The position numbers and the translations under genes were made by a program. Under the pieces are notes generated by a model. It saw nothing but the letters and a program-made list of their open reading frames with translations, had not been told where the DNA came from and searched no databases. This document shows, piece after piece, positions 49,880 through 54,467 of a DNA stretch of 64,000 nt. The stretch's first letter is position 1; every line of letters begins with the position of its first letter. Source of the stretch: Microbacteriaceae bacterium (GTDB taxonomy: Bacteria > Actinomycetota > Actinomycetes > Actinomycetales > Microbacteriaceae); the NCBI GenBank assembly GCA_025465095.1, contig JAODME010000015.1:82636-146635 (forward strand), written 5' to 3'.

Positions 49880-50860
49880 TCATTCCCGTGAGCGGGCTCC
49901 GGCGTCGAGGGGGGCAGCGACTTCGCCTGCTCGTTCGCGGACGCCTTTCCCGCGCCGCCCCCGTACGGCAATACCGGCACAGAGGACGACGGCCAGGCCG
50001 CCGAGGATCGTGGGCCAGGTGAGCTGTTCGTGCAAGAAGAGCGCGGCCCAGCCGATGCTCAGCACCGGTTGGACGAGTTGCACCTGGCTCACCTGCGCCA
50101 TCGGTCCGATCGCGAGGCCGCGATACCACGCAAAAAACCCGAGGAACATGCTGACCACCGCGAGATACCCGAATGCGGCCCACTCGACCGGAGTCGCCGT
50201 GGGTGCCTGCTGACTTACCGACAGAGCGGTCAACCCGATCGTCAGCGGTGACGACAGCACCAGCGCCCAAGAGACGGTCTGCCAGGAACCCAGTTCGCGG
50301 GCGAGAGAACCACCTTCGGCGTATCCCACTGCGGCGGCCACGACTGCCCCGAAAAGGAGCAGATCCGGCCAGCCCAGCTGATCAATCCCCCCGCCTTGCG
50401 AAGACGCGAACCCGACGGCCACCATCGAGCCGATCCCGGCCATGATCCAGAACCAGAGCGGTGGACGTTCGTTGCCTCGGATCGTTGCCATCACGGCCGT
50501 TGCTGCCGGCAGCAACGCAATGACGACGGCTCCGTGAGTGGCCGGCACCGCAGCGAGTGCGAACGACGTCAGAAGCGGAAAGCCGACCACGACGCCACCT
50601 GCCACAACCCCCAAGCGCACCCACTGGTCGCCGTGGGGCAGTCGCTGTCGGGTCAATGCGAGTGCGGCGGTAGCGAGCAGAGCGGCAACAACTGCTCGGC
50701 CAGACCCGATGAACAGCGGCGAGAGGCCGGCGACCGCCACGCGTGTGAACGGAACCGTGAACGAGAACGCGAGGATCCCGAACAGGCCCCAAAACAATCC
50801 GGCTCGAGAAGGCGATATCGCGGCCGGGCGAACCCGAGTAGCGCTACTATATATCGGCAT
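49880..50860 (-). CDS. DMT/EamA family transporter
   Basis: AGLFWGLFGILAFSFTVPFTRVAVAGLSPLFIGSGRAVVAALLA, multi-TM; start ATG at 50860 (in-frame TTG at 50866). Confidence 0.85.
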   Translation of the reverse strand: MPIYSSATRVRPAAISPSRAGLFWGLFGILAFSFTVPFTRVAVAGLSPLFIGSGRAVVAALLATAALALTRQRLPHGDQWVRLGVVAGGVVVGFPLLTSFALAAVPATHGAVVIALLPAATAVMATIRGNERPPLWFWIMAGIGSMVAVGFASSQGGGIDQLGWPDLLLFGAVVAAAVGYAEGGSLARELGSWQTVSWALVLSSPLTIGLTALSVSQQAPTATPVEWAAFGYLAVVSMFLGFFAWYRGLAIGPMAQVSQVQLVQPVLSIGWAALFLHEQLTWPTILGGLAVVLCAGIAVRGRRGKGVRERAGEVAAPLDAGARSRE

Positions 50861-52274
50861 GGGCAACGATAGCAGTTCGGCGATTGCGGCCGCGCTCCGG
50901 ATATGGATAGCGAACGCGCCGGCTGGGGCGCGTCTGCCCCCGACTCGGGCGCTGGTCGCCAGCTACGCGGCGAGCCCGCTGACTGTCCAGAAGGCGATGC
51001 GCGCATTGGCTGCCCAGGGCCTGATCGAGAGCAAGCCGGGCGTAGGAACGTTTGTTCGAGCGGTCCGCACCGTGCGGCCACTCGACTATGGATGGCAGAC
51101 CGCCGCCCTGCGCTCACCCCTGAATCGCGTCACACTGCTGCCCAGCGCTGTGCGCAGCGCACCAGTCGACGCGATCGCATTGCACGCCGGCTACCCCGAC
51201 CGGGAACTCCTGCCGGAGCGTCTGGTCAGAGCCGCGCTCGCCCGAGCGGCGCGAAGCGACGCCGCGCTATCGCGCTCTCCCATTTCAGGGCTGCCCGAAC
51301 TGCAGTCCTGGTTCGCCAGTGAACTGGGCAGCTTCACGCCGGTCGGCGTGACACCACCCCGAGCAAGCGATGTCATCGTGCTCCCGGGAAGCCAGAGCGG
51401 GCTCAGCTCGATCTTCCGGGCCCTCGTCGGGACCAGCCAGCCGCTGCTGATGGAGTCGCCGACCTACTGGGGGGCAATCCTTGCCGCGGCGCAGGCCGGC
51501 GTCACCGTCGTTCCCGTACCGAGCGGCGTGGATGGTCCCGACCCGGGCGAGTTGGCTCGAGCCTTTGAAGAGACGGGCGCGCGGGTGTTCTATGCGCAAC
51601 CGAACTACGCCAATCCCACTGGCACCCAATGGTCCCAAGCGTTGACTCAGCAGATCCTGGACGTCGTCCGCGACCACGGTGCGTTCCTCGTCGAAGACGA
51701 CTGGGCTCACGACTTCGGTATCGACTCCAGCCCCACCCCGGTGGCTGCGCAGGACAGCACCGGCCACGTCGTCTACCTTCGGTCCCTAACGAAGAGCGTG
51801 TCACCGTCCGTTCGCGTCGCAGCGCTCATCGCACGTGGCCCGGCCAGAGAACGCATCCTCGCCGACCGGGCAGCCGCGTCGATGTATGTCAGCGGGATAC
51901 TCCAAACCGCAGCCCTCGACGTCGTCACCCAGCCCGCATGGCAGACCCACCGGCGCAACCTCCGCCAACAACTGCGCGCCCGTCGCGACCTGCTCGTGAC
52001 CAGTTTGCGAGAGCATGCCCCGCAAGCCGACCTGCGCAACGTACCCAAAGGCGGCCTGAACCTGTGGGCACGCCTCCCCGACGCGACCAACCTTCCGCAA
52101 CTCATCCGGGACTGCGAATCCTCAGGCGTCCTCATCGCGCCCGGCACCGAATGGTTCCCCGCCGAGCCCACCGGCCCCTTCATCCGCCTCAATTATGCAG
52201 GGCCCGACCCCGGCGCGTTCCCCGAAGGGGCACGCGTCATCGGCGAAGCGTTGACGCGCAACGTGGGAGCTTGA
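50859..52274 (+). CDS. MocR-type GntR/aminotransferase-like transcriptional regulator
   Basis: wHTH ARLPPTRALVASYAASPLTVQKAMRALAAQGLIESKPGVGTFV; PLP fold QPNYANPTGTQWS, EDDWAHDFG, SLTKSVSPSVRVA. Confidence 0.88.
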   Translation: MGNDSSSAIAAALRIWIANAPAGARLPPTRALVASYAASPLTVQKAMRALAAQGLIESKPGVGTFVRAVRTVRPLDYGWQTAALRSPLNRVTLLPSAVRSAPVDAIALHAGYPDRELLPERLVRAALARAARSDAALSRSPISGLPELQSWFASELGSFTPVGVTPPRASDVIVLPGSQSGLSSIFRALVGTSQPLLMESPTYWGAILAAAQAGVTVVPVPSGVDGPDPGELARAFEETGARVFYAQPNYANPTGTQWSQALTQQILDVVRDHGAFLVEDDWAHDFGIDSSPTPVAAQDSTGHVVYLRSLTKSVSPSVRVAALIARGPARERILADRAAASMYVSGILQTAALDVVTQPAWQTHRRNLRQQLRARRDLLVTSLREHAPQADLRNVPKGGLNLWARLPDATNLPQLIRDCESSGVLIAPGTEWFPAEPTGPFIRLNYAGPDPGAFPEGARVIGEALTRNVGA

Positions 52275-52366: not shown

Positions 52367-52756
52367 CTACTGGCGTCGAAGCAGATCCAGAAACTCATCT
52401 GCCATTTGCAGCTGTTCGTGCAATTTCTTTCGTCGTTCGACAGCTTGAACTACGAACTCCCCCAGCTCTTCACGGACGGAGGGATTGTCCGAGCCAGGGC
52501 CGCCGCTCTGCAGAGTGTCAATGATGCGCAGAAGGTCCATCATCTCCTCGAGGGAGAAGCCCAGTGGTTTCATCCGTCGGATTAACATCAGCCGGGAAAG
52601 GTCATCTTGGGTGTAGATCCGGAATCCACCATCGGTGCGACCGGATGCCTTCAGGAGCCCGATTTCGTCGTAGTGACGGATCGTTCGCAACGACAGACAC
52701 GTCTTGTCGGCGAGTTCGCCTATGTGCATCGTCACCGTCGGCGCGTCCGTCACCAT
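52367..52756 (-). CDS. MerR family regulator
   Basis: HIGELADKTCLSLRTIRHYDEIGLLKASGRTDGGFRIYTQDDLSRLMLIRRMKPLGFSLEEM. Confidence 0.88.
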   Translation of the reverse strand: MVTDAPTVTMHIGELADKTCLSLRTIRHYDEIGLLKASGRTDGGFRIYTQDDLSRLMLIRRMKPLGFSLEEMMDLLRIIDTLQSGGPGSDNPSVREELGEFVVQAVERRKKLHEQLQMADEFLDLLRRQ

Positions 52757-52773
52757 CGCTCATCCTCCATCTC

Positions 52774-52805
52774 GACTACCACCTAACCCTAACGTTAGGG
52801 TAGTC
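52774..52805. promoter_or_regulatory. nested palindromes, probable MerR operator
   Basis: Inner ACCCTAACGTTAGGGT (52786-52801, perfect 16 bp); outer GACTACC (52774-52780) / GGTAGTC (52799-52805). Confidence 0.7.
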
Positions 52806-52946
52806 TTCGCTGACGGCTGGCCTTCCCGTGTGAGCCGAATCCCACCATTGTCCACTAAGACCGTGCTGGCCTGCGCAATGGGGCGCTCAACCATTTCCCA
52901 TTCACCCGCGGTTTCTCGCCGAGAGCCCCAGCATCTGGAGTCAGCC

Positions 52947-54467
52947 ATGGCCATCGACCTGAAGCCCGACGCGCCCAGCCGTTACAAACCAAATCCCTCG
53001 GTCATGACCGCTTTGCGCACACCCCGCATCCTGATCCGCGAGATCCTGGCCGGGCTGGTGGTGGCGCTCGCGCTCATTCCCGAGGCCATAGCGTTCTCGA
53101 TCATCGCCGGCGTCGACCCGCGCGTGGGGTTGTTCTCCACTTTTGTAATGGCAGTCGTGATCTCGTTCATCGGCGGCCGACCGGCGATGATCACCGGCGC
53201 CACCGCTGCCGTGGCGCTCGTCGTAGCCCCCGTCGCGCGCGAGTACGGCTTGGACTACCTCATCGCCACCGTCATACTGGGCGGAATCTTCCAGCTCATC
53301 CTGGCGGCCGTCGGTGTCGCGAAGCTCATGCGTTTCATCCCGCGAAGCGTCATGGTCGGCTTCGTGAATGCGCTGGCGATCCTGATCTTCACCGCACAGC
53401 TTCCGCAACTGCTCGGCGTGCCATTCATGGTCTACCCGCTCGTCGCCGTAGGCATCGCCATCATGGTCGTGATGCCGCGCTTCACCAAGGCCGTCCCGGC
53501 GCCGCTCGTCGCGATCATCGTGCTCACGGCGGTCACCGTCCTCGTCGCGATCAACGTTCCCACCATCGGCGACCAGGGCGACCTGCCGGAGAGCCTGCCG
53601 CAGTTGTTCTTTCCGGATGTTCCCTGGAACCTGGAGACCCTCGCAATCATCGCGCCTTATGCACTCGGTGTGGCAGTAGTGGGCATCCTCGAATCCCTCA
53701 TGGCGGCCAAGCTCGTCGACGAGATCACCGACACCCACTCGCGCAAGACGCAGGAGACCTTCGGCCAGGGCGTTGCCAACGTCCTTTCCGGCTTCTTCGG
53801 AGGAATGGGCGGTTGCGCACTGATCGGCCAGACCATGATCAACGTCAAGGCCTCAGGTGCCCGAACCCGCATCTCGACCTTCCTCTCCGGCGCCTTCCTG
53901 CTCGTGCTCGTGCTCGGCGTGGGTGACCTGCTCGCGGTCGTGCCGATGGCGGCACTCGTGGCGGTGATGATCATCGTCTCCGTGCTCACCTTCGATTGGC
54001 ACAGCATCCGATGGAGCACGCTCAAGCGGATGCCGAAGAGTGAGACGACCGTCATGGTCGCGACGGTCATCGCCATCGTCGCCACCCACAACCTCGCCAT
54101 CGGCGTCGGTGTCGGCGTGCTCATCGCCATGGTCGCCTTCGCGCGCCGCGTCGCCCACCTCGTAACCGTGGAACGAACCCTCCCAGAAGATCAGGCGGTG
54201 CCGACCGCCGTCTACACCGTCGATGGCGCCCTGTTCTTCGCCTCGAGCCACGACCTGACCACGCAGTTCGCATACACCGAAGATCCGGATCGGGTCATCA
54301 TCGACATGGCGGGATCGCACGTGTGGGACGCGTCCACCGTGGCCGCCCTGGACGCCATAACCAACAAGTACAAACACCTCGGCAAGCGGGTCATCATCGA
54401 AGGCATGAACGAAGCCAGCACCGATATGCACACCCGCCTCGCCGGCAATCTCGGCGGCGGCCACTGA
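52947..54467 (+). CDS. SulP family anion transporter with STAS domain
   Basis: LVVALALIPEAIAFSIIAGVDPRVGLFSTFVMAVVISFIGGRPAMITGATAAVALVV; C-terminal YTVDGALFFASSHDLTTQF...AGSHVWDASTVAALDAI. Confidence 0.9.
   Translation: MAIDLKPDAPSRYKPNPSVMTALRTPRILIREILAGLVVALALIPEAIAFSIIAGVDPRVGLFSTFVMAVVISFIGGRPAMITGATAAVALVVAPVAREYGLDYLIATVILGGIFQLILAAVGVAKLMRFIPRSVMVGFVNALAILIFTAQLPQLLGVPFMVYPLVAVGIAIMVVMPRFTKAVPAPLVAIIVLTAVTVLVAINVPTIGDQGDLPESLPQLFFPDVPWNLETLAIIAPYALGVAVVGILESLMAAKLVDEITDTHSRKTQETFGQGVANVLSGFFGGMGGCALIGQTMINVKASGARTRISTFLSGAFLLVLVLGVGDLLAVVPMAALVAVMIIVSVLTFDWHSIRWSTLKRMPKSETTVMVATVIAIVATHNLAIGVGVGVLIAMVAFARRVAHLVTVERTLPEDQAVPTAVYTVDGALFFASSHDLTTQFAYTEDPDRVIIDMAGSHVWDASTVAALDAITNKYKHLGKRVIIEGMNEASTDMHTRLAGNLGGGH

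Follow-up and report, generated by a model that had tools for sequence, protein, structure and literature searches.

Regulators of the MocR subfamily often activate the gene transcribed divergently from their own, and their known operators consist of two to four direct or inverted boxes at helix-turn spacing, as described in a published collection (Suvorova and Rodionov 2016, PMC5320631). In that collection four-box motifs are rare, two regulons show the box order direct-direct-inverted-direct, and divergons place the regulator opposite a DMT or BenE transporter across a multi-box operator. In the actinobacterial YczR-YczE divergons, a MocR regulator likewise diverges from a membrane-protein gene with a repeat operator between them (Milano et al. 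2016, PMC4944035), across intergenic regions of 27-274 bp with a mean of 100 bp in Actinobacteria. Regulators of other families offer further comparisons. In LysG-LysE of Mycobacterium tuberculosis, a regulator and an exporter are transcribed divergently from promoters that overlap, a palindrome lies between the two, and one transcript is leaderless; this pair differs in its LysR-type activator and its 108 bp of intergenic DNA (PMC5648196). Rv1129c-Rv1130 (prpD) of the same species is also a regulator with a divergent target, both leaderless, under a regulator of another family; the accessible text of that study does not report a shared start for the pair (PMC3898074). Overlap between divergent genes is uncommon in general. 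It accounts for 1% of overlapping pairs (PMC2478687), and its underrepresentation in prokaryotes is thought to reflect counter-selection, as regulatory DNA needs room upstream of genes (PMC2174442).

The pair analyzed here lies in a 64,000-nucleotide stretch of DNA from a Microbacteriaceae bacterium (the window). It resembles the published MocR divergons in its regulator, its DMT-family transporter and its multi-box operator-like element. It differs from YczR-YczE in having no intergenic DNA, and from the divergons in the accessible part of the collection (PMC5320631) in this and in its boxes, which are placed within the two coding sequences and take in the -10 hexamers of both promoters. The locus belongs to a known type, the MocR divergon, and is set apart by an unusually compact, putative operator and promoter element within two coding sequences. 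Our literature search found no account of divergent genes that share their starts and hold an operator and two promoters within themselves; an earlier description is possible in subscription papers and supplements, which lay largely outside that search. The features are listed below, with positions in the window, box offsets relative to the MocR ATG, and counts among 188 distinct loci or the 104 non-redundant relatives of a first set.

49880-50860, minus strand: EamA/DMT-family transporter, 326 aa (Pfam EamA; frame from the shared ATG)
50814-50819, plus strand: putative operator box 1, GATATC, in the transporter coding sequence (GRTANC at -45, first set)
50837-50842, plus strand: putative operator box 2, AGTAGC, in the transporter coding sequence; left half of the palindrome AGTAGCGCTACT (TA at -20/-19 in 104/104 and 180/188)
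50843-50848, minus strand: putative operator box 3 (GCTACT on the plus strand), right palindrome arm, overlapping the mocR -10 box (TA at -14/-13 in 104/104 and 182/188)
50845-50850, plus strand: predicted mocR promoter -10 box, TACTAT, 8 nt before the ATG, with CGC in front (TANNNT in 104/104 and 176/188)
50858-50861, both strands: CATG containing both start codons (185/188 distinct loci)
50859-52274, plus strand: mocR, GntR-type winged-helix and class I/II aminotransferase domains, 471 aa (Pfam matches, aligned orthologues)
50866-50871, minus strand: predicted transporter promoter -10 box, TATCGT, 5 nt before the ATG (TANNNT in 183/188)
50868-50873, plus strand: putative operator box 4, GATAGC, in the mocR coding sequence, overlapping the transporter -10 box (TA at +12/+13 in 187/188)
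50872-50874, minus strand: TGC, predicted extended -10 of the transporter promoter (TG in 173/188)

By its domains and PLP residues, the regulator can be assigned to the MocR subfamily of GntR regulators. It carries the N-terminal GntR winged helix (Pfam GntR, 2.2e-13) and the C-terminal aminotransferase-like domain (Aminotran_1_2, 5.6e-22) that define the subfamily, both above cut-off. K312, D280, N252 and R443 are invariant in the orthologue alignment, and the SFSK lysine in 2egy lines up with K312. We take K312 to be the PLP-binding lysine and the other three to be residues with catalytic roles in fold type I. Identification with a named MocR regulator was rejected for PdxR (NF052282; 199.2 bits against a curated cut-off of 320), YczR (178.4 against 487.4) and GabR (40.6 against 600). 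The transporter matches Pfam EamA at 2.4e-30 (106 bits, cut-off 28.2).

The first-pass annotation had placed both start codons in one CATG, leaving no intergenic DNA, and our comparisons confirm this. The mocR ATG occupies 50859-50861 on the plus strand and the transporter ATG 50860-50858 on the minus strand, such that the genes overlap by 2 nt. Among 60 related genomes, nine matches (the window's own included, identity down to 40%) all have CATG. Wider searches gave a first set of 112 distinct loci, with CATG in 111 and an EamA match in frame with the shared ATG in 109 of those 111. Class and plasmid-record loci brought the total to 188, with CATG in 185 and a partner-side ATG in 186; starts in these later loci were picked by favoring a CATG close to where the match began, a possible bias from which the first set is free. 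Most loci came from Actinomycetota, across many actinomycete families, with others from rhizobia and Deinococcus. NCBI annotation of the plasmid-borne relatives likewise begins both genes at the shared CATG. This conservation excludes a chance origin of the shared site. For comparison, a hand count of four annotated 49-kb actinobacterial stretches gave 26 divergent pairs, none overlapping and the closest 40 bp apart.

The conservation of the transporter-side ATG disfavors the alternative that the transporter begins downstream, near LFWGLFG, or that MocR begins internally. The EamA frame from the shared ATG is held in 109/109 loci despite changes in linker length, and a downstream partner start with a Shine-Dalgarno-like motif is rare (9/177). 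Of the three loci lacking CATG, one (L036) has CATA, so that the transporter retains its ATG, whereas MocR loses its own and would have to use ATA or a different start. The other two agree with the shared-start reading: L148 has neither an annotated divergent partner nor a partner ATG, and in Deinococcus aetherius the site reads CACG, leaving the transporter a GTG, with an in-frame MocR ATG six codons further on that is also present in the related protein of Deinococcus sp. QL22 (L147).

Four boxes stand at fixed distances from the MocR ATG in the 104 non-redundant loci: GRTANC at -45, RRTAGC at -22, an inverted GCTAYY at -16 and GATAGC at +10. Sequence comparison thus places conserved repeat boxes of MocR type in the regulator's own divergent region. 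Box 2 and box 4 are 31 bp apart, approximately three helix turns. The left half of box 1 occurs in 135/188 loci, its right half in 37/188 and both in 3; in those 37 loci the opposite half-site, six bases further on, replaces it. A general repeat search of 50800-50900 returned only GC-rich repeats and did not detect the short boxes.

We consider it likely that the locus is an autoregulated divergon with zero intergenic DNA, in which leaderless, facing promoters and a four-box MocR operator provide joint repression and mutually exclusive initiation. Two -10-only promoters would face each other around CATG, with transcripts beginning at or within a few nucleotides of each ATG's A, on opposite strands and approximately 1 bp apart, to yield two leaderless mRNAs. 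MocR would bind all four boxes (direct, direct, inverted, direct); since the inner ones include the -10 hexamers, binding would repress both its own gene and the transporter. Joint repression and exclusion of simultaneous initiation are both suggested by the overlap of the operator-like boxes with the two -10 boxes. From the geometry, RNA polymerase would serve one side at a time, as both promoters need the same ~27 bp, and the transporter promoter, with its extended TGC -10, is expected to be the stronger of the two. We infer both an effector, probably a metabolite recognized through PLP, that would relieve repression, and a transported compound. The earlier suggestion of a built-in switch, taken as two alternative stable states, is not supported: only one of the proteins is a regulator, and the boxes suggest joint repression.

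Several observations bear on this autoregulated, jointly repressed divergon. In its favor, a pattern search blind to proteins found 18 sites in 17 of 397 phylum genomes, every one a MocR divergon, while the control gave 3 hits, and ten loci carry the mini-ORF overlaps detailed below. Against it stand the frequency of activation among MocR regulators, the rarity of four-box motifs, the unequal spacing of the two hexamers and the rhizobial loci, which keep the geometry and have no TANNNT boxes.

The main rival follows the classic MocR divergon: MocR would repress its own gene and activate the transporter, with the overlap merely bringing the sites together. Activation of the divergent gene is described as common for these regulators (PMC5320631), and an effector-dependent rearrangement between direct and inverted boxes has been reported for PdxR. 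However, the placement of the boxes does not suit an activator of the transporter. The transporter promoter has no box on its upstream side: box 4 sits over its -10, and the other three are downstream of its start. Box 1 is instead upstream of the mocR promoter. Moreover, the good extended -10 on the transporter side would need no activator. We therefore regard transporter activation as unlikely, while taking it seriously.

A second rival accepts the boxes as a MocR operator and places the real promoters and starts elsewhere, with TANNNT arising from the operator and the shared ATG translated without a Shine-Dalgarno sequence from longer mRNAs. The TA steps are indeed part of the repeats themselves. 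The hexamers, however, are fixed relative to the MocR ATG (-14 to -9 on the plus strand and +13 to +8 on the minus strand), and their final T is conserved at 96% and 98%, against 43% at the equivalent repeat position. As this exceeds the need of the repeat, it counts for promoters rather than an operator by-product. No sigma-70 promoter with a -35 box was found near the shared start, and Shine-Dalgarno-like motifs are depleted: either side has one in 1/188 loci, whereas they occur in 13.6% of random stretches. Together these findings make promoters elsewhere improbable.

The position of the mocR hexamer required correction: CTATAT at 50847-50852 had been proposed as its -10, whereas the conserved hexamer is TACTAT at 50845-50850, in which T-14, A-13 and T-9 are invariant across 104/104 non-redundant first-set relatives. 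TATCGT had been rightly placed on the transporter side. As also proposed, the positions put each -10 box within the other gene's coding sequence and both promoters on the same DNA. The TG extension is a property of the transporter side, occurring on the MocR side in only 2/188 loci.

As neither side has a Shine-Dalgarno sequence, both mRNAs are probably leaderless. In M. tuberculosis, 26% of the genes that have a primary start site are leaderless, and mapped starts have TANNNT centered 7-12 bp upstream, no -35 box, C at -1 and T at +2 (PMC3898074). The hexamer centers here, 11.5 bp upstream on the MocR side and 8.5 bp on the transporter side, fall within this range. Being self-complementary, CATG gives both strands the C-A-T favored at those starts (PMC3898074) together with an AUG. 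The unequal spacing of the hexamers (8 and 5 nt) implies that one start may sit 1-3 nt inside or outside its ATG.

It had also been argued that any operator must lie within coding sequence; codon choice agrees, revealing DNA-level selection on the operator-like element within both genes. The third base of MocR codon 4 is A or T in 104/104 genes, against 17.5 expected from the codon usage of the same genes. For transporter codons 5, 7 and 15 the count is 102/102 each, against 13.3, 14.5 and 7.1 expected. The last rival, that the N-termini are functional peptides (MxNDSSS in MocR and MxxxSSAT in the transporter) and the DNA repeats secondary, is very hard to sustain: both peptides are conserved by residue, but the rare synonymous codons GAT, AGT, GCT and NTA are fixed (z 22.7 to 36.9) and a similar peptide start occurs in unrelated partners and mini-ORFs. 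Because the third bases are fixed as A/T, the conserved peptides are better read, for the most part, as a consequence of the operator and promoter sequences.

CATG is kept while MocR diverges to approximately 40% identity and partners change. In a set of 202 loci, slightly larger than the 188 and not fully de-duplicated, the partner was EamA in 186 and otherwise MFS, class-V aminotransferase, BenE, short ORFs or none. MFS is the partner in the rhizobial group (L143-L145), and a class-V aminotransferase takes the place of the transporter at two loci (L139 and L183). In a quick tree built from 105 full-length MocR sequences, the non-EamA partners fell in the deeper, more diverse part.

At ten loci the frame that begins at the partner-side ATG is a mini-ORF of 17-51 codons, and its stop overlaps the start of the next ORF, as ATGA or GTGA in eight and with the ATG 5 nt earlier in two. 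Such stop/start overlaps are fairly frequent by chance. Translational coupling nevertheless appears likely because the downstream proteins are conserved, and, if real, it requires that the partner-side ATG be translated. The next gene encodes BenE in two loci, a small membrane protein with a GPD(T/S)RD motif in six and a looser version of it in a seventh; nothing recognizable was found in the ORF after the mini-ORF at the tenth (L224). The BenE-family transporters, on Prescottella and Rhodococcus plasmids (L149 and L239), are joined by ATGA to ORFs of 28-29 codons from CATG. The GPD(T/S)RD protein replaces the transporter on the minus strand at L191, L194, L196, L202, L205 and L208, possibly also at L009, and two examples had no Pfam match.

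More broadly, and with confidence slightly short of even, we propose that CATG is a bidirectional leaderless start within a ~60-bp element that serves at once as operator, as a pair of mutually exclusive promoters, as both translation starts and as both N-termini. The arrangement would be held by selection on this element rather than on the partner protein, with partners swapped or linked through an operator-encoded, coupled, leaderless mini-ORF. Such a module, fixed across deep divergence, would illustrate how the cost of divergent start overlap can be met. It would also provide a natural setting in which to test mutually exclusive initiation, the translation of leaderless mRNAs and selection on an operator embedded in two genes, and the regulatory site can be predicted from its signature in many genomes.

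Two further candidates were rejected. Extra palindrome copies did not point to a wider regulon (two sites, against six in the reversed control), and a second two-sided CATG divergon in the window's genome was attributed to chance, as the single pattern match had a partner ORF of 14 codons and the reversed control gave two. Downstream of mocR, the translation of an ORF at 52367-52756 (minus strand) resembles a MerR-type regulator, and the adjoining ORF at 52704-54467 (plus strand) resembles a SulP-type transporter.
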